A stretch of 64,000 nucleotides of DNA, taken from positions 91,429-155,428 of the forward strand of contig VFJW01000033.1 of the NCBI GenBank assembly GCA_009885845.1. Reading direction: 5' to 3'. Under the pieces are notes generated by a model. It made no database searches and had not been told where the DNA came from. It saw nothing but the letters and a program-made list of their open reading frames with translations. Source of the DNA: Geobacter sp. (GTDB lineage Bacteria; Desulfobacterota; Desulfuromonadia; Geobacterales; Pseudopelobacteraceae). Position 1 is the stretch's first letter; every line of letters starts with the position of its first letter. This document shows, piece after piece, positions 3,022 to 62,992 of the stretch. The position numbers and the translations under genes were made by a program.

Positions 3022-6000
3022 TTATACGTCTTTCCCGCATTCCTTTTGTGCAGATTTGTCCTGATACATCCTCTCATCACTCAGCTTTAATGCTTTTGCA
3101 AGCTGGTCCATATTTTCTGCAGTTGCAATTCCAAATGCGATGCTTACGCTGCCACTGGTGATTTCAGGGCAGTTCCTGATTCTCTCGACCGCTTCCTCCG
3201 CGACGTCACTGCCGGATTCCGGAAGAAGAACGGCAAATTCATCACCGCCGATGCGGGCAACTATATCTTCAGCCCGGAATACCGTCACGATAATCCGCGC
3301 CGCCAGACGGATCAAAGAATCCCCCGCGTCATGCCCCAATGTGTCATTGACTGTTTTAAGGCCATTGACATCAGCCATCACGATACTCACGGGAAACATT
3401 CTGCTGTGGGCAAACCGTTCCAGCTCTTCATCAAAAAAAGCCCGGTTATAGAGGTCGGTCAACGCATCGTGCGTATTGTCATGACGGAGCGTCATTTCAA
3501 TCTCTTTGCGGGTGGTAATATCATGGACGATACCTATGATGCCGATGACGGCGCCACTGTCATTAAAAATGGGGGTTTTGATCTTTTCCACGTAATTGAC
3601 CTTCCCCTCGCGATCAACAACGTACTCTTCAAAATATGTGCGATTACCGGATACGATGACATCATTGAAGTCTTTTTCATGCTTTTCGGCAAGTTCATGC
3701 GGATAAATGTCATAATCGCTCTTCCCGATCAGATCCTGCGGTGTCACCCCCAATTCATTGCAGAACGGATCGTTTACTGCGACATACATTCCCTCCTTGT
3801 TCTTAAGCCAGGCGATATTGGGAATATTGTTGAGAATTGCCTGCTGCTGTCGGATGACTTCGCTGATCCGCTCTTCAGCGAGTTTGCGGGCGGTGATATC
3901 CTCCATCGCCAGAAGGATGATGCGTGAGCCGATATTATCCCGGAAAATCTGCCGCGCGTTCAGCAGAATGGTCTTGCGGCCGATGCCGGGAAATTCATGT
4001 TCGACCTCGTAGCCGTTGATGACGGTATCAAGCGGGAGGATCTCCTCGATAAGCACCCGCAGCCGGGGAATATCCCACTGACGATTACCGAGGTCATAGA
4101 TGAAAATACCGATGGTTTCTTCGGGTGTGACCTTAAACGTTTCGTAGAAGCTGTGGTTGGCGGTAAGGATTTTCAGGTCCGAATTCAGCACCACCAGCGG
4201 CTCGCGCACGGTTTCGACGATGTTCTCGGCATATTCCAGTGCAATCTGGATTTCCGCTTCCAACTGTTTGCGGGCGGTAATATCCTCCATCGCCAGGAGG
4301 ATGATGCGTGAGCCGATATTTTCCCGGAAAATCTGCCGCGCATTCAGCAGAATCGTCTTACGGCCGATACCGGGAAAATCATGTTCGACCTCGTAACCGT
4401 TGATGACGGTATCAAGCGGGAGAATTTCCTCGACAAGTACCCGCAGCCGGGGAATATCCCACTGGCGGTTGCCGAGATCGTAGATGAAATTGCCGATGGT
4501 ATCTTCGGATGTGACCTTAAATGTCTCATAGAAGCTGTGGTTGGCGGTAAGGATCTTCAGGTCGGAATTCAGCACCACCATCGGCTCGCGCACGGTTTCG
4601 ACGATGTTCTCGGCATATTCCCGTGCAATCTGGATTTCCGCTTCCAGCTGCTTGCGGGCGGTGATATCCTCCATCGCCAGAAGGATGATGCGTGAGCCGA
4701 TATTATCCCGGAAAATCTGCCGGGCGTTGAGCAGAATGCTCTTGTGGCCGATATACGGGAAATCATGCTCAACTTCATAGCCGTTGATCACGGTATCCTG
4801 AGGGAGGATCTCTTCAACAAGAACCCGCAGCCGGGGAATATCCCACTGCCGGTTACCGAGATCATAGATAAAGTTCCCGATGGTATCTTCGGATGTGACC
4901 ATAAAGGTGTCGTAGAAGCTGTGGTTGGCGGTAAGTACCTTCAGGTCGGAATTCAGCACCACCAGCGGCTCGCGCACGGTCTCGACGATGTTCTCGGCAT
5001 ATTCCCGTGCAATCTGGATTTCCGCTTCCAGCTGCTTGCGGGCGGTAATATCCTCCATGGCCAGAAGGATAATATGCGAGCCGATATCCTCCCGGAAAAT
5101 CTGTCGTCCGTTCAGGAGAATCGTCTTGCGGCCGATCCCGGGGAAATCATGTTCGACCTCATAACCGTTGAACACGGTATCGTGAGGGAGGATATCCTCA
5201 AAAAGTACCCGCAGCTTGGGAATGTCCCACTGCCGGTTGCCGAGGTCATAGATGAAGTTTCCGATGGTTTCCCGGGGTGTGACCCTGAACGTCTCATAGA
5301 AACTGTGGTTGGCGGTAATTATCTTCAGGTCGGAATTCAGCACCACCAGCGGTTCGCGCACGGTCTCGACAATGTTCTCGGCATATTCCAGCGCATCCTG
5401 AATTTCTACTTCCAGCAGTTTGCGGGCGGTAATATCCTCCATGGCCAGGAGGATGATGCGTGAGGCAATATCCTCCCGGAAAATCTGCCGGGCATTCAGG
5501 AGAATCGTCTTACGGCCGATACCGGGAAAATCGTGTTCGACTTCATAGCCGTTGAACACGGTATCGTGAGGGAGGATTTCCTCAAAAAGTACCCGCAGTT
5601 TGGGAATGTCCCACTGCCGGTTGCCGAGGTCGTAGATAAAGTTTCCGATGGTTTCATGAGCCGTTACCTTGAAGGTTTCATAGAAACTGTGGTTGGCGGT
5701 CAGGATCTTCAGATCCGAATTCAGCACCACCAGCGGTTCGCGCACAGTCTCGACAATGTTCTCGGCATATTCCCGGGCATTCTGGATTTCAGTTTCCAGC
5801 TGCTTGCGTTCGCTGACATCCCTCATAATCCCGATGGCATGCCTCTTTCCCTTGATAGTCAGGGCCGATACGGAAAGCTCCATCGGAAATTCCGTCCCAT
5901 CCTTGCGGAGTGCTGAGACTTCATTCCTTTTGCCGATGAACGGACCGGTACCCTCTGCCCTGAATCGATCGAAACCCTTCTTTGCGCTGTCGCAGAGCCG

Positions 6001-6741
6001 TTTGGGAACAAACAGATTGTGGAAATCCTGCCCGATAATCTCAGCAGTAGAACTGCCGAACATTTTCTCCGCGGCAGCATTGCAGAATGTTACCGTTTCG
6101 CTGTCATCCATCATGATAATCGCGTCAACAGCCATTTCCGCCAGACGATACATCCGCTCTTCACTCACCCGCAGTGCATCCTCTGCCAGCTTGCGCCTCG
6201 TTATGTCGATCAGGGCGCATCGGCACTGCTGCCCCTGATCAGTCGCCTTGGCTTCAATCTGCAGGACAAGCGAAAGTTTTCCTTTACTGAGGAGCGCCAC
6301 CTCACAGGACTCCTTGCGTTGACTGTGAAATACCGTTCCGAGGAAGGCGGCGAACGCGGGACGATATTCTTGCGCAACGAACTGTCCGAAACGGGCGCCG
6401 ATCAATCGAGAACGCACCCGCCCCAGAAGAGTGGCGCCGCTGAGGTTCACGGAGCAGATGACGCCGTCGAGATCGAGCGTGGCGTAGCCGACCGGGGCAA
6501 AGTCGTAGAGATCAGTGTAGTTTTCCAGAGCCCGCTCCACTTCGTCCCGCGCCTTGCGGAGCTCTGCGTTCTGTATCTCCAGCTCAATCTGGTGAACTTC
6601 AAGCTCATGTACCAGCTTCTTCATGGCATCGTCAGTCCGGACAGGAAGCAATTCGTGCACCTGTGCACCAAGCCGCTCTTCCGCAGTGCGCCGCAAATCG
6701 GATGCATTTTTCATGAGGTTTTTCACAGTGCTGTTTTTCAT
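3022..6741 (-). CDS. Diguanylate cyclase with eight PAS domains (five tandem duplicates)
   Basis: Predicted c-di-GMP synthase of 1239 residues. After an N-terminal coiled segment come two PAS domains, then five nearly identical 128-residue PAS units sharing NIVETVREPL, YDLGNRQWDIP and NGYEVEH, then an eighth PAS and a C-terminal GGDEF domain. The active site ARIGGDEFAVLLPES lies near residue 1170, and RAED five residues before it forms the RxxD product-inhibition site. No EAL or HD-GYP domain and no membrane segments are seen, so it is probably a cytosolic sensor. I prefer the ATG at 6741 over the listed upstream start because AGGAGG sits six bases before it. It is the last gene of a minus-strand run behind an HD-GYP phosphodiesterase. 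Confidence 0.9.
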   Translation of the reverse strand: MKNSTVKNLMKNASDLRRTAEERLGAQVHELLPVRTDDAMKKLVHELEVHQIELEIQNAELRKARDEVERALENYTDLYDFAPVGYATLDLDGVICSVNLSGATLLGRVRSRLIGARFGQFVAQEYRPAFAAFLGTVFHSQRKESCEVALLSKGKLSLVLQIEAKATDQGQQCRCALIDITRRKLAEDALRVSEERMYRLAEMAVDAIIMMDDSETVTFCNAAAEKMFGSSTAEIIGQDFHNLFVPKRLCDSAKKGFDRFRAEGTGPFIGKRNEVSALRKDGTEFPMELSVSALTIKGKRHAIGIMRDVSERKQLETEIQNAREYAENIVETVREPLVVLNSDLKILTANHSFYETFKVTAHETIGNFIYDLGNRQWDIPKLRVLFEEILPHDTVFNGYEVEHDFPGIGRKTILLNARQIFREDIASRIILLAMEDITARKLLEVEIQDALEYAENIVETVREPLVVLNSDLKIITANHSFYETFRVTPRETIGNFIYDLGNRQWDIPKLRVLFEDILPHDTVFNGYEVEHDFPGIGRKTILLNGRQIFREDIGSHIILLAMEDITARKQLEAEIQIAREYAENIVETVREPLVVLNSDLKVLTANHSFYDTFMVTSEDTIGNFIYDLGNRQWDIPRLRVLVEEILPQDTVINGYEVEHDFPYIGHKSILLNARQIFRDNIGSRIILLAMEDITARKQLEAEIQIAREYAENIVETVREPMVVLNSDLKILTANHSFYETFKVTSEDTIGNFIYDLGNRQWDIPRLRVLVEEILPLDTVINGYEVEHDFPGIGRKTILLNARQIFRENIGSRIILLAMEDITARKQLEAEIQIALEYAENIVETVREPLVVLNSDLKILTANHSFYETFKVTPEETIGIFIYDLGNRQWDIPRLRVLIEEILPLDTVINGYEVEHEFPGIGRKTILLNARQIFRDNIGSRIILLAMEDITARKLAEERISEVIRQQQAILNNIPNIAWLKNKEGMYVAVNDPFCNELGVTPQDLIGKSDYDIYPHELAEKHEKDFNDVIVSGNRTYFEEYVVDREGKVNYVEKIKTPIFNDSGAVIGIIGIVHDITTRKEIEMTLRHDNTHDALTDLYNRAFFDEELERFAHSRMFPVSIVMADVNGLKTVNDTLGHDAGDSLIRLAARIIVTVFRAEDIVARIGGDEFAVLLPESGSDVAEEAVERIRNCPEITSGSVSIAFGIATAENMDQLAKALKLSDERMYQDKSAQKECGKDV
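3862..5781 (-). repeat. Five tandem 384-bp units encoding identical-type PAS domains
   Basis: The phrase tcctccatcgcc or tcctccatggcc recurs at exact 384-bp steps (3901, 4285, 4669, 5053, 5437). Five in-frame units of 128 codons are therefore stacked head to tail inside the diguanylate cyclase gene. The units differ mainly by scattered substitutions and keep the same length, which indicates recent duplication or ongoing homogenisation. The matching antisense ORFs in the track are shadows of these units. Confidence 0.95.
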
Positions 6742-6828
6742 CGCCGCCCTCCTGTCTGGTACCAAAATCCGGGAACCGCTGTTTTTCCCGCACCGTTCCG
6801 TTTCCTACCGGTATCCGGCGCCATGTGC

Positions 6829-56867: not shown

Positions 56868-57260
56868 TCAATTATCATATTCACAAATAACATTTTGATT
56901 TATTTCTGGGCGCAGCTGGCCGGACATCTTGAATAAATTTGAAATCAAAAACGGGGACAAAGAAGTGGCAATAACAACACTAACAACACCCATTACCGCC
57001 ATAATAACTAGAGCCGTCCAAACCAACCCAGAGAATTCTTTTACATCTTTCATGCCTAATCGCTGGGCGATAATTTGAGTAAGCGCTCTTCCTAATCCGA
57101 GATCAACAGGCTGAAATAGCCAATGAACATCCAAGCCAACGTAAGGACACCAACGCGATCAGTCCACAAACCTTTGATCAGCAAGGGATTGTAAACAATA
57201 CCCAAAATAGCAGCAAGGTCTGCTCCACGAGATTGATTTTGGTATTTTTAGCAATTATTT
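56868..57260 (-). pseudogene. Truncated and frameshifted wzx flippase
   Basis: Pieced across frames the minus strand reads KNTKINL, then LGIVYNPLLIKGLWTDRVGVLTLAWMFIGYFSL, then DLGLGRALTQIIAQRLGMKD and two further helices. This is the N-terminal third of a Wzx flippase, broken by at least two frameshifts and cut off after about 130 codons. It is unrelated in sequence to the intact wzx at 46.4 kb and marks the right boundary of the island. Confidence 0.8.
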
Positions 57261-57367: not shown

Positions 57368-58558
57368 CTATCCCCGACTGATTATGCTCTTCCAACGGAC
57401 TCTTTCGGGCTCCGACATTTTGCTGACTCTCTCCATTGCAAACGCCAGACAACAGGAGACGAATAGGGAGAAGATCATTGTTTTGATTACGACCTTGCTC
57501 CTCGCAGGCTTGCTCTTTCTCTCCGGCACCTTCGCCACCTGCAAGATCTGAAACGGCGAAACATCCTTGGCCTCGGACAGCTTCGTCACTTCATACTGCT
57601 TGGTCAGCAATTCAACCAGCATCTCCTGAATCTTGAAATCCCGCATCAGCCGCAGGTACTCCTGCCCCAGCTGCGGCATACTCCCGACCGATGGAATTGA
57701 ACTGCTCCCGCCGCCCATTCCTTCCAGTTTGCCAATCTGCGCCCGTAAATTGGCTACCATGGTTTTGGTCGTTTTTACCTCCTGGCTCGATTCGGTAAAT
57801 TGCCTCAGGAAGGTGGAAAGTTGCACCTCCTGGGCAGCGAGCTGAGCACGCAACTGCGCCACACCTTCGATGGTCGCCTTTGCCTGATCGGTTACCGACA
57901 CGGCCTTGTTCTTTGATTGAAAGATTTTGAGCGCATCTTCCGCCTTTGTCAGATCGGCACGGGCTGCGGAAATACGTTCTTCCAGATATATGCGGTTCTT
58001 ACCGGCCGAGGTCATGTTGAGCCGGACCGCCAGTTTCCCCAATTCCTCCACGTAAGTATTGGCCATCTCTGCGGCCCGTTTCGGATTTTTATCATTCACG
58101 GCAATGGTTATGACGCCGTCCTTTTTGCCTGTTGTAATAATGACATTTTTGTCCAATGCCGCGTACGTATTCACCCGTAACTTTTCCTTGTAGACTTCCA
58201 TCAGCTTGAAGCGGTCAATGAGCGGATCCTTGACCGTCTCGCTCCTAAGCATGGTCATATACAAGTCAGCCTTGGTCGGTCCGCCCAGTCCAGACCCAGC
58301 GATGCCGGCCAAGCCGCCAAGCTGTCCAAACATGGCCCCCATAACCCCTTTGTCGTCCTCCATCGGCAAAATCATGGCCTTTGCGGTGTATATACTCGGC
58401 AGCAGCAGAACGACGATGATACTCAAGATCGTGGCTGAAAGTGTGAAACCGGCGATCAGACGTCTGTGCCTAAAGAGTATGGCCAAGTAGTCTAAAATTC
58501 TGACGGTTGGCGCAGATTGCTGGGACGTGCTGGAATGATGATCGGTATTTTGTTGCAT
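57368..58558 (-). CDS. Wzz/GumC-type polysaccharide chain-length protein
   Basis: A 396-residue inner-membrane protein with helices near residues 35-55 and 360-380 and a long periplasmic coiled-coil region between, the polysaccharide co-polymerase layout. SIYTAKAMILP after helix 1 and PERKSKPARSKVVI before helix 2 are the conserved Wzz boundaries. No kinase domain. GGAG precedes the ATG. It was probably directly downstream of the export gene before the ATPase cassette separated them. Confidence 0.9.
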   Translation of the reverse strand: MQQNTDHHSSTSQQSAPTVRILDYLAILFRHRRLIAGFTLSATILSIIVVLLLPSIYTAKAMILPMEDDKGVMGAMFGQLGGLAGIAGSGLGGPTKADLYMTMLRSETVKDPLIDRFKLMEVYKEKLRVNTYAALDKNVIITTGKKDGVITIAVNDKNPKRAAEMANTYVEELGKLAVRLNMTSAGKNRIYLEERISAARADLTKAEDALKIFQSKNKAVSVTDQAKATIEGVAQLRAQLAAQEVQLSTFLRQFTESSQEVKTTKTMVANLRAQIGKLEGMGGGSSSIPSVGSMPQLGQEYLRLMRDFKIQEMLVELLTKQYEVTKLSEAKDVSPFQILQVAKVPERKSKPARSKVVIKTMIFSLFVSCCLAFAMERVSKMSEPERVRWKSIISRG

Positions 58559-58711
58559 TGCTTACTCCGGAAAATCTGTTCAGGGTTCGAGGTTCAAGTT
58601 CAGACTTCCTGATCCAGATGGGTTGTTATCGGTTTTTTCAGCAAATAAACTTGGCACCAAAGTGGCTTCAATCTCATCCGTAAGTTACTAAACAGTTTTG
58701 GTCTTGAGTCA

Positions 58712-60100
58712 TCATTGTAACTCCCACCCGTCTACCAGTAACACTCCATCTTGAAGAGCCAGCTTTCGCATACCATCCGTGTATCCGCTCTTGCTGAACA
58801 GGATGAAACACTCTCGGCGCGGATCCTTACCCCATACGACGAGTTTTGCCTTGCGTTGAAGGTTGCGGTAGATATCCTCACCGACCGGATTTATGCTCCA
58901 TTTACATTCACCAAACCAGATCGTCTCGTTCTCTTCATCCAGCGCCACGAGGTCGATCTCTTCGTTCTTCAGCCACCATCTACCAATGGTGGAGAAGGTT
59001 ATCCTGCCAGATTTGAGAAGATTCAGGCAGAGTTCACGGCAGACATCCTCATAGACAAATGACAGATGTTGATCGAATGTATCCCTGATTTTGCCAAGCA
59101 GATAATCGGTATTGCCGATTTCCAGTCTGCTCCGGTGCGGGAAGACATATTTGAACCAGAACGAGAAAAATCTATCATGCAACCGATAGAGCCCAAGTCT
59201 GCTCTTGTCGGGATATTTTTCAGTAACCGGGATTTCCTTATCCACAAAACGGAGTGATCGGAGGATATCCAGATAGCGTGCAAGGTGTGACTTTTCAAAG
59301 CCGGTGTCGTTGATAATCTCCGACATCTTCCGTTTTCCTTGGGCGATGGCACGGAGGATGACAAAATAGTTGCGTGGTTCGCGTAACTCTTCTCGCAGCA
59401 GAAACTCAACCTCATTATGGAGAAACGACCCACGGTCAAGAATAAGGTCGTTGATGGCACTCTGTATTGTGGCGCCTGCGTCGAGCCGTTCTATATACGC
59501 CGGGATAGAACCGAAAACCCCGTAGATTTCCAGTCGCTGCTGCAAATTGGCCTCGGGGAAAAACTCCGCCAACGCCGTGAACGGCATTTCGCGAACTTCC
59601 AGAGAGGCGGTGCGTCTGCCGTAGAGCGGTGCTTTATAAAAGAGCACTTCCTCTTCCATCATGCCGACGCTCGATCCTAGAAGGATCAGGAATGCATTGC
59701 TCTCCTTCAGATGAGTGTCGATGCCTTTTTGAAATATTGAGGAAATCCCTTTGTTGGAGTTTACCAGATAGGGGAACTCATCGATTACTATGACGAGCCG
59801 TTCGTGTTCAGCCTTATCCTTAAGATACCGAAATAATTGCTGCCAGTCCCGAAAGCCTGATTCAGTCAGGATGGTGTCGCCAAAGAATTCACCAACTTCG
59901 TGTCCCAGGTTGCGGAGCTGCTCCCCTTCTGTAACGCTGTCGGCAAGGAAATAGATCGCCCTTTTGTCCCGGATAAATTCACGCACCAAACGGGTCTTGC
60001 CAACCCGCCGCCTGCCATAGAGCGGGATAAACTGAAAACCCGGCTTCTCGTAATACTTTTGTAAAAAAGCAAGTTCCTCTGTTCTACTGACGAATCGCAT
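58712..60100 (-). CDS. Orphan AAA ATPase with DUF234-type nuclease-like domain
   Basis: A 462-residue protein of the archaeal-type ATPase_2 group. Walker A is GRRRVGKTR near residue 30, Walker B is LVIVIDEFPYL, and the sensor is LLGSSVGMM. A winged-helix segment (ILRAIAQGKRKMSEI...) follows, then a DUF234 C-terminal domain with EEIDLVALDEENETIWFGECKW, the D...ExK pattern of PD-(D/E)XK nucleases. ATG 60100 (GGGG six bases upstream) is preferred to the GTG four codons earlier. It does not belong to the polysaccharide pathway. Confidence 0.85.
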   Translation of the reverse strand: MRFVSRTEELAFLQKYYEKPGFQFIPLYGRRRVGKTRLVREFIRDKRAIYFLADSVTEGEQLRNLGHEVGEFFGDTILTESGFRDWQQLFRYLKDKAEHERLVIVIDEFPYLVNSNKGISSIFQKGIDTHLKESNAFLILLGSSVGMMEEEVLFYKAPLYGRRTASLEVREMPFTALAEFFPEANLQQRLEIYGVFGSIPAYIERLDAGATIQSAINDLILDRGSFLHNEVEFLLREELREPRNYFVILRAIAQGKRKMSEIINDTGFEKSHLARYLDILRSLRFVDKEIPVTEKYPDKSRLGLYRLHDRFFSFWFKYVFPHRSRLEIGNTDYLLGKIRDTFDQHLSFVYEDVCRELCLNLLKSGRITFSTIGRWWLKNEEIDLVALDEENETIWFGECKWSINPVGEDIYRNLQRKAKLVVWGKDPRRECFILFSKSGYTDGMRKLALQDGVLLVDGWELQ

Positions 60101-60114
60101 GATTTGCCCCACAC

Positions 60115-60149
60115 AGTATAATTTAATTTTGCATAATCACAATTATACT
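60115..60149 (-). promoter_or_regulatory. Inverted repeat over promoter of ATPase gene 2 (candidate operator)
   Basis: AGTATAATT (60115-60123) and AATTATACT (60141-60149) are perfect 9-bp inverted copies. On the minus strand TTGTGA-N16-TATACT forms a reasonable promoter overlapping both arms, and the start codon follows 14 bases later. Position relative to the gene mirrors the palindrome of ATPase gene 1, although the sequences differ. Confidence 0.5.
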
Positions 60150-60239
60150 AAATGTTTCCGGGAAAGCAATGCAAAAGACTTATCTGCGGAGGCACATACA
60201 ACCTCTACCCATCCGGAAAAAACTGTCAGGGTTCGAGGT

Positions 60240-62804
60240 TCAAAGCCCTGCTGCAATCAGTACTCCTGCCGCAAGAGCAAGATTGCCGAGGATGATAGCG
60301 GTATCCTTGATTTCGCGCATCCAGGCGATGCGGTCGTATTTTTGAGGGACGATAACGGTGTCACCCGGCTCCAGGGTCGTGGACATGAATCCGCTAAATA
60401 TCAGGTTCTTAAACATTGAAACCTGCTGCCTGCTCAAGACCGTTCCATCCACCCGGACAATATAGATATCGCTTTCTTCCGCAGTTCTGATCGGGCCGCC
60501 CGCTTTCGCCAGATAAAACGCCACATCATCATCGTCAACCGGGATAAAGCTGGTCGGGTTATAGACCTGGCCGAGGACGTTGACGGCGTTAGGCATCTGG
60601 TTGACTTCCAACAGATCGCCACCCATGAGTTCGACGTCATAGCGGGAATTTTTGAACTTGTCGGGTGACTCCATGCGGATTACCAGACGCCCTTCAGCCT
60701 TCGATGTTTTTAGTAAAGCTATTGATCGCTGCAGGCTCTCCAAGGCCGCCCTGGTGGCCTCCAGCTCCTCCTTTGTGGAAGCGACCGAGGTAACTTCCGC
60801 TTGCTTTTTCAGGATGTCCTGCTCGGTTTTAGCCACAAACTCATCCATCCGTTTCTGTTGCAGCTCCCGGATGGACACCCTGGTAAATTTGGCGGCGCGC
60901 AGATATGCCTTATCGGTAAAGCCACCGGCCCGCTCGATCAGTGTGCTCAGTTTTTCCCCTTTATAGATCGGGTATACTCCGGGAAAACGGAATTCACCCT
61001 GGAGCGCTACATAGCGCTCTTTTTCTTCGGCCCAGTTGGGGATTTTCCTGATGCTCAACTCGTCAAACGGGGCAAGCAGCAGATTGTCCTTCGGGTTGCC
61101 TTTGATGGCCTCTTCCAGATCGATGACTATGGGAAACGACGAAACCGCCTCGCCGGTTTGCTTGATGCGATTTATCTCGGCATTTTTCAGATAGGCGGTG
61201 ATTTTGGGATTGCCTGCCAACAACAGGAGATCTCGCACCTTCATATTGGTAAAGAGGCGGTATTCTCCGGGGCGCTGCACCTCGCCGTTCACCTTGACCC
61301 TGGGCATTTCCTCCATCTCCCAGCGATAGAAAATCCGTATTTTGTCGAACTCCTTAAGTTCCAGGTCATGCGCGGGGTCACCCGCCAGCGCCTTGGCAAC
61401 ATTGACGAAGAGTTTTTCCGGGTGATAATCGGGAGGATAAAGCCGGGTGATTTCCGCGTCATCCTTGTAATATTCGGCGAGCAGATTGTCCTGCAGCAGC
61501 AGACTGCTCAGGCGCATGCCGCTCTTGAGCGCGTAGTCGCCGGGGCGCAGCACATAGCCGTCAAGTCTGACATGATCACGCAGGGTGGCGTCGATGGGGA
61601 AAATCTTGACGATGTCCAGGTCCTGGATGGCGACATTTTTTATGAGCTCGTCCAGGTTTTTACTCCCCACTTTCGGATCGATGTTGAAATCGGCCACCAC
61701 CTTCTTTTCATGGGCGGCAACCCGGGAAATCTGTACTCTCTGGAGGTAACCGGTGGGGAGCAAACCTTCCGCCAGACCGACCAGTTCACCCAGATCCTTT
61801 TCGTCTTTGAGTTCATAGAGAGCCGGTCTTTTTACGTTGCCGCCAATTCCGGCAACCCTGCCGATAACCGGCACAAAGATGGTGTCTCCGGGCTGGAGGC
61901 GAATGTCCCTGCTCTTGTCCCCTTTGAGAAAGAAATCGTAGAGATCAACCGTTTCGACGATCTTGCCCTCCCGCTTGATTTGGATAGTGCGCAGGGTGCC
62001 ACTTTTCAGCGGCCCGCCGGAGGCGCTGAGGGCATTAAGCAGCGTCGAGAGGGAACTCAGGTTGTAATCGCCCGGCGCTTTCACTTCGCCGACGACGAAC
62101 ACCTTGATGACCCGCAGTTTGCCCATGGTCACATTAAGGTTGAAATCTTTGAAATTCTTCGCCAGGCTGGCCTTCAACACGCCCGAAAGCCGGCCATAAG
62201 TGATACCCCAGACCTTTAGGCTTCCAACCTTGGGGAGTACTATTTCGCCGCTCCGATTAACCTCCAGTTCATACGTGCCTTCGACGACCCCCCAGAGATT
62301 GAGAATAATCCTGTCTCCCGGGCCGATGACGTAATCAGGGCCGACCGGGATATCGGTAAGCGGCGCAAAACCGGTCGCCGCCGGGCTGAAAAAGTTATAG
62401 CCGAACTGGGTAAGATTTTTAACCTTGTATGGCTGAGGCCGGCCAATGCCATCACTGTTTTCCTCGGCATTTTCTTCGGCTGCCACACTCTTTTCAATGG
62501 CGGAACTATCATCTTGATCCGTACCGTTTTCCATGCCTTTTTTATTCGTTTTTTCAGCAACGCCATCGGTTCCGGTATTTCCGGAGCTTTTCAGGGTTGC
62601 AGGTTCTGCCGGACGGTTAGCGGGAGGAGCTGGAGCTATTTTGGGCGCAGAGGGGGCGGTTGCGGCTGGACGATATGGTGATGGCGGCAGAGACTGTTTG
62701 GCCGGAACGGATGGCGGCAGTCCCTCGGCTTGAACACCATGACAATTAATCAACATGCCGACAAACCACATCAGAGTTATAAAATGTAATATTACATTTT
62801 TCAA
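60240..62804 (-). CDS. Wza-like polysaccharide export protein with multiple SLBB domains
   Basis: About 855 residues. After a signal peptide (LMWFVGMLINCHGVQAEG) comes a Pro-rich linker, the polysaccharide export domain (GPDYVIGPGDRIILNLWGVVEG) and at least four SLBB domains (for example VFVVGEVKAPGDYNLSS, VKVNGEVQRPGEYRLF, YVALQGEFRFPGVYPIY, VNVLGQVYNPTSF). The C-terminal helix is typical of outer-membrane Wza-type channels. The preferred start is TTG at 62804 with AGGAG seven bases upstream. The listed ATG is 25 codons earlier and spoils the signal peptide. Confidence 0.88.
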   Translation of the reverse strand: MKNVILHFITLMWFVGMLINCHGVQAEGLPPSVPAKQSLPPSPYRPAATAPSAPKIAPAPPANRPAEPATLKSSGNTGTDGVAEKTNKKGMENGTDQDDSSAIEKSVAAEENAEENSDGIGRPQPYKVKNLTQFGYNFFSPAATGFAPLTDIPVGPDYVIGPGDRIILNLWGVVEGTYELEVNRSGEIVLPKVGSLKVWGITYGRLSGVLKASLAKNFKDFNLNVTMGKLRVIKVFVVGEVKAPGDYNLSSLSTLLNALSASGGPLKSGTLRTIQIKREGKIVETVDLYDFFLKGDKSRDIRLQPGDTIFVPVIGRVAGIGGNVKRPALYELKDEKDLGELVGLAEGLLPTGYLQRVQISRVAAHEKKVVADFNIDPKVGSKNLDELIKNVAIQDLDIVKIFPIDATLRDHVRLDGYVLRPGDYALKSGMRLSSLLLQDNLLAEYYKDDAEITRLYPPDYHPEKLFVNVAKALAGDPAHDLELKEFDKIRIFYRWEMEEMPRVKVNGEVQRPGEYRLFTNMKVRDLLLLAGNPKITAYLKNAEINRIKQTGEAVSSFPIVIDLEEAIKGNPKDNLLLAPFDELSIRKIPNWAEEKERYVALQGEFRFPGVYPIYKGEKLSTLIERAGGFTDKAYLRAAKFTRVSIRELQQKRMDEFVAKTEQDILKKQAEVTSVASTKEELEATRAALESLQRSIALLKTSKAEGRLVIRMESPDKFKNSRYDVELMGGDLLEVNQMPNAVNVLGQVYNPTSFIPVDDDDVAFYLAKAGGPIRTAEESDIYIVRVDGTVLSRQQVSMFKNLIFSGFMSTTLEPGDTVIVPQKYDRIAWMREIKDTAIILGNLALAAGVLIAAGL

Positions 62805-62992
62805 AGGGCATCTCCTGTTGTTGTCCGTAAAATTTTGCGCAGTTTTTGCCTTCTGCCTGACTCCATCCAACAACTCCAATATGTGTGAAATAATAGCAGT
62901 TCTGCCCGAATTGACTATGAGCCGTCGTCCTTATTTGAAATAGGATAATTGAACGTTTGCTCTTAGGCTGTTGCACCATGCCGGGTAGTCGT

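Follow-up and report, generated by a model that had tools for sequence, protein, structure and literature searches.

How does a single gene enter a gene pair when it carries no transposase, and what leaves a copy of the target on either side of it? The question is raised by a locus of a Geobacter sp. genome, lying within the 64,000 nucleotides that were analysed as a whole and that we call here the window, where a gene for an ATPase separates two capsule-operon genes, one wza-like and one wzz-like. Defence genes of the solo type lie dispersed over genomes, yet the route taken by single genes without a transposase is rarely visible. Our preferred reading, to which we give a probability of about 60%, is that a laterally moved gene of the PDC-S27 type was taken up passively at a repeat-prone wza-wzz spacer, the 32 bp of which now stand on both sides of it. 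According to the list of open reading frames and Pfam, the gene order along the minus strand is wza-like, insert, wzz-like, with the following features:

60240-62879, minus strand: wza-like polysaccharide export protein (Poly_export and SLBB; Pfam PF02563, PF10531), upstream member of the split pair.
60212-60243, minus strand: left spacer copy (wza side), TTGAACCTCGAACCCTGACAGTTTTTTCCGGA, including the wza stop codon (repeat alignment; empty site of the relative G015).
58598-60211, minus strand: inserted segment, 1614 bp, missing from G015 and from ten further congeners with wzz directly after wza.
60115-60149, minus strand: operator-like palindrome AGTATAATTGTGATTATGCAAAATTAAATTATACT, overlapping the predicted promoter and travelling with the gene in close copies (sequence comparison of close copies).
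58712-60112, minus strand: ATPase_2/DUF234 gene for a predicted STAND-like ATPase with a C-terminal PD-(D/E)XK-type domain, PDC-S27 (Pfam, PADLOC, invariant residues, AF2, Foldseek).
58901-58954, minus strand: putative nuclease motif EID...GECKW (codons of D387, E402 and K404), invariant in 17 homologues.
58571-58603, minus strand: degenerate heptad array of four GAAC units, one every 7 nt; its first unit falls just beyond the duplicated segment, where the insert ends (sequence reading).
58566-58597, minus strand: right spacer copy (wzz side), TTGAACCTCGAACCCTGAACAGATTTTCCGGA, extending into the wzz ribosome-binding site (repeat alignment).
57368-58558, minus strand: wzz-like chain-length determinant (Pfam PF02706, PF13807), downstream member of the split pair.

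The bounds of the insert have been refined to the segment between the two repeats, whose only real open reading frame is that of the ATPase. Neither a transposase nor an integrase was found within these 1,614 bp, nor were paired ends, the one pair detected being a 23-nt imperfect match at chance level. I2, an inverted repeat joining the wzz start to the 5' side of the insert, was considered and dropped, being no larger than another chance pair. Elsewhere in the window, an 88-aa hydrophobic open reading frame downstream of wzz (56868-57134) resembles, by eye, a fragment of a polysaccharide flippase, and five 384-bp tandem repeats (88% alike; 3884-5808) lie within a large open reading frame on the minus strand (3022-6765).

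Relatives of this genome show how the locus looks when it is empty. In G015, the nearest by wza (82% amino-acid identity), 34 nt separate the wza stop codon from the wzz ATG, the TTTGAACCT...GGAG spacer is present once and the ATPase is missing; in ten other congeners wzz starts 4-9 nt after wza; the insertion is therefore derived. The original prediction had proposed that the ATPase gene, as a unit of one gene that brings along its promoter palindrome but no transposase or integrase, had been put into a pre-existing wza-wzz pair, that a spacer repeat of about 30 bp on either side reflects duplication of the target, and that removing one copy together with the insert would give a normal spacer, to be looked for in close relatives. 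All of this is borne out, the empty site of G015 being as predicted, the repeat measuring 32 bp and the palindrome being kept in close copies of the gene. The repeat copies diverge by about 0.1 per site (three events in 32 bp), which is low against a wza dS of 0.96 to G015, so that the insertion is probably younger than the split from that relative, as estimated from these 32 bp alone.

The duplicated sequence, TTGAACCTCGAACCCTGA...TTTTCCGGA, stands at the end of wza and again before wzz. Its copies are identical at 27 of 32 positions when aligned ungapped, with the first 18 exact, whereas a gapped alignment reduces the difference to a deletion and an insertion of 1 nt each and a single substitution; the duplicated spacer has the form TTGAACC...CCGGAGTAAGCA. 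The genome contains no other pair of this kind, and the 17-mer core of the repeat, CAGGGTTCGAGGTTCAA, has no third copy in the 3.27 Mb at up to two mismatches. The longest segment common to both flanks of the insert is 18 nt, compared with a maximum of 10 in shuffled sequence. The tail ...TTTTCCGGA, which does not follow the heptad pattern and is native to the wzz side, is present in both copies, as expected if the target was duplicated. An assembly artefact was considered as the source of the repeat and is unlikely, because the identical stretch is just 18 nt long.

The inserted gene would encode a protein of 466 amino acids, or of 462 if translated from the ATG at 60100, which is the likely start in place of the GTG at 60112, because homologues begin with M[RQK]F[VI]NR. 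Pfam places the protein above cut-off in PF01637 and PF03008 (ATPase_2 and DUF234), and the PADLOC model PDLC04984 (PDC-S27) matches residues 6-437, nearly the whole protein, with an E value of 8.1e-49; NCBIfam gave no match for the gene. Residues G33..GKT40 of Walker A and D111E112 of Walker B, as well as E355, D387 and E402-x-K404, are invariant among 17 homologues. The AlphaFold (AF2) model is confident, with a pLDDT of 91, and among PDB entries Foldseek matches it best to two archaeal Walker ATPases (2qen and 2fna); ORC/Cdc6 and plant NLR proteins rank lower. According to a 2026 survey, PDC-S27 joins an ATPase to a PD-(D/E)XK domain in one protein and is a putative single-gene defence system, experimental validation still pending for most candidates of this kind (PMC12988326). 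Judged from its sequence, the ATPase is thus a single-gene candidate defence protein of the PDC-S27 family, an already known kind of protein at an unusually readable insertion. From family and fold, the STAND-like ATPase would sense a trigger and turn on the nuclease of PD-(D/E)XK type fused to it, phage being the most likely target, and the palindrome may be the site of autoregulation.

Close copies of the gene (86-91% amino-acid identity) occur in seven other genomes among the 141 searched in the order and in the MAG Kmv15, G051 having two of them, while no homologue between 48% and 86% identity was found in that same set; decayed remnants are present in G009, G011 and G052. The close copies lie in unrelated surroundings and have the palindrome upstream in common. 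Between families (G017, G051 and G008 against G035), the ATPase shows a dN of 0.03 and a dS of 0.5-0.65, compared with a dN of 0.57-0.59 and a dS near or at saturation for FolD of the same genomes, a contrast that serves as a guide, because in the other families the FolD compared may be a paralogue. This low divergence indicates lateral transfer across families. The nearest known copy stands at a dS of 0.85 from the window gene, and searches for phage, plasmid or viral carriage returned relatives below 44% identity or none. Among close copies, dN/dS is 0.02-0.08, so that the gene works under strong constraint; for a patchily distributed gene of defence type, such values (L003, L060-L068) seem unusually low.

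The spacer itself has a repetitive character. Heptads similar to those at the insertion are dispersed in some congeners, with 38 matches in G002, four or five in several others and none or one in controls, and in the arrays of the genus a period of 7 is strongly favoured over 5, 6, 8 and 9, in a partly biased sampling; in the genome of the window, no other match to this heptad type was found at up to three mismatches. In G047 (L041, G047:C96), a gene for a four-helix-bundle protein (TIGR02436) lies in the wza-wzz spacer with direct heptad arrays on both sides. That the wza-wzz spacer has taken up a different solo gene in each of two species, both bordered by heptad sequence, suggests a repeat-prone landing site, although two cases are few. 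A broader proposal, which we regard as doubtful, is that dispersed heptads of the TTGAACC/TTCAAGG type are landing sites for solo conflict genes in this genus, by a recombination route without an element-encoded enzyme; if it were true, the ATPase-nuclease and the four-helix-bundle gene would each have entered this spacer bordered by direct heptads. The N-terminus of the G047 wzz product consists of heptad-encoded NLEPEVKP-like repeats.

What, then, brought the gene into the spacer? The original prediction saw here a self-contained mobile ATPase that might itself drive insertion. In this model, the ATPase-nuclease would make a staggered cut in the target, and indeed a nuclease-type motif is fused to the ATPase, the copies occupy scattered sites and the target is duplicated here. 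However, flanking repeats of 20-40 bp were found at one of 25 loci, the window itself, and at none of the other 24, of which 9 hold close and 15 distant homologues; the window scores 18 nt in common between its flanks and the next best locus 11, in a search blind to duplications shorter than about 10 bp. Nor could a constant cassette length, which that prediction suggested testing, or fixed ends be made out: subclades share 25-134 bp of extra flanking DNA, to extents that differ from one subclade to another. In L061, L063 and L065 (assigned in L065 by homology to the other two), the ATPase stop codon is immediately followed by part of a "mobile mystery" A/B cassette common to them, and an internally deleted cassette of this kind lies upstream of the ATPase in L062; the flanks that accompany the gene are therefore arbitrary. 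A fixed cassette from palindrome to stop codon, read from the loss of flank homology, was also dropped, since neutral flanks are saturated at a dS of 0.5-2 and homology loss at these points is not readable as the ends of an element. Membership in a candidate defence family would, moreover, explain both the nuclease domain and the lateral spread with no role in transposition. The self-mobile ATPase is rejected as a general mechanism, and at this locus, too, it appears very improbable that the ATPase inserted itself. At L066, L062, L064, L063 and L067, clean single-cassette empty sites were not found, the contrasts being one-sided or on the scale of islands. One such contrast concerns a gene for a C92 papain-like peptidase and its neighbour, gene B (L066:5933-9986, L160:2611-5506, L158): the two adjoin in G018, whereas in G022 and G011 small genes lie at this site, among them the ATPase or a remnant of it, a nuclease of the GxxExxY type and an antitoxin of the Phd type.

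The strongest competitor, a possible but distinctly less favoured one, attributes the repeats to the heptads: the incoming DNA would have carried similar heptads, and recombination or annealing would have left one copy at each end, as with attL/attR or a single crossover with a circle. The repeat does consist of GAAC heptads, of which the right end of the insert has one more, and the dispersed arrays with their period of 7 and the G047 spacer speak in the same direction, but the tail outside the heptad pattern is found in both copies although it belongs to the wzz side, and other copies of the ATPase lack a repeat common to their two flanks. Att sites and Cas1-type integration typically show long direct repeats, which combine here with clean ends at the spacer, so that an enzyme acting in trans (a tyrosine recombinase, a casposase- or Cas1-like integrase, or a transposase) might have made the duplication of thirty-odd bp or the att repeats. 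This we consider unlikely, given that the insert ends carry no inverted repeats, no ends common to the copies could be made out and a common trans system should have left repeats at the other copies as well. Heptad DNA is also prone to slippage, and the spacer could have been duplicated in tandem before the gene entered between both copies; this would require two events at exactly one boundary, and a tandemly duplicated spacer was found in none of the relatives surveyed, which leaves it about as improbable as insertion by the ATPase.

A segment of about 1.6 kb with one PDC-S27-type gene and its autoregulatory-looking promoter has entered the wza-wzz spacer in this lineage. Under passive uptake, the foreign DNA would have been joined within the heptads where a break had left staggered ends, or else through template switching or microhomology, and fill-in would have duplicated the spacer; one of these events is probably the origin of the 32-bp duplication. 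The insertion could be tolerated, as the duplicate retains the ribosome-binding site of wzz and the three genes point in the same direction. Against passive capture, a repeat of 32 bp with clean ends looks like a target duplication made by an enzyme, which could be encoded elsewhere and act in trans; the distance of the nearest copy (dS 0.85), too far for a close donor, and the lack of a further match to the heptad type in this genome also weigh against it. This one spacer offers an empty site, an occupied site, a readable duplication and a different solo gene in a second species, which makes the route testable in strains. It also carries a warning, namely that long direct repeats around one copy are no signature of transposition until homologues have been checked.

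Compared with known systems, the gene shares domain order, size, single-gene layout and a close profile match (E 8e-49) with PDC-S27 (PADLOC; ATPase_2 plus DUF234), and nothing defining sets it apart, the subfamily of the window adding a conserved 35-bp operator and an unusually strong constraint. The archaeal STAND-type ATPases PABY2304 (2qen) and SSO1545 (2fna) agree with it in the fold of the ATPase (Foldseek E values of 4e-14 and 2e-11, the former also matching by sequence), but they measure about 350 amino acids as against 466 here, where the DUF234 nuclease-type domain is extra. Insertion sequences and transposons likewise duplicate their target on either side; here, by contrast, transposase and terminal inverted repeats are missing, shared ends could not be made out, the duplication is much longer and other copies lack it. 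An island of a tyrosine recombinase would show att-like direct repeats and a cognate integrase; the locus has a direct repeat, and the insert is without an integrase, though one could act in trans. The "mobile mystery" protein A/B cassettes (TIGR02612/TIGR02613) are small self-contained HTH-Fic pairs scattered through the same genus, and degenerate pieces of them abut some ATPase copies; their proteins are unrelated, and they are absent from the window insertion. Such cassettes, mostly 91-95% alike, were seen at L150-L156 (G007, G004, G024, twice in G017, G044 and G023), and the one in G024 adjoins a gene for an AAA_14/DUF4143 ATPase (PDC-S01; L152:2159-3394). The solo genes for four-helix-bundle proteins (S23/IVP-like, TIGR02436), finally, share the setting, the G047 copy sitting in this very spacer with direct heptad arrays on either side, and differ in the protein encoded and in having long arrays where the window has one 32-bp duplication.
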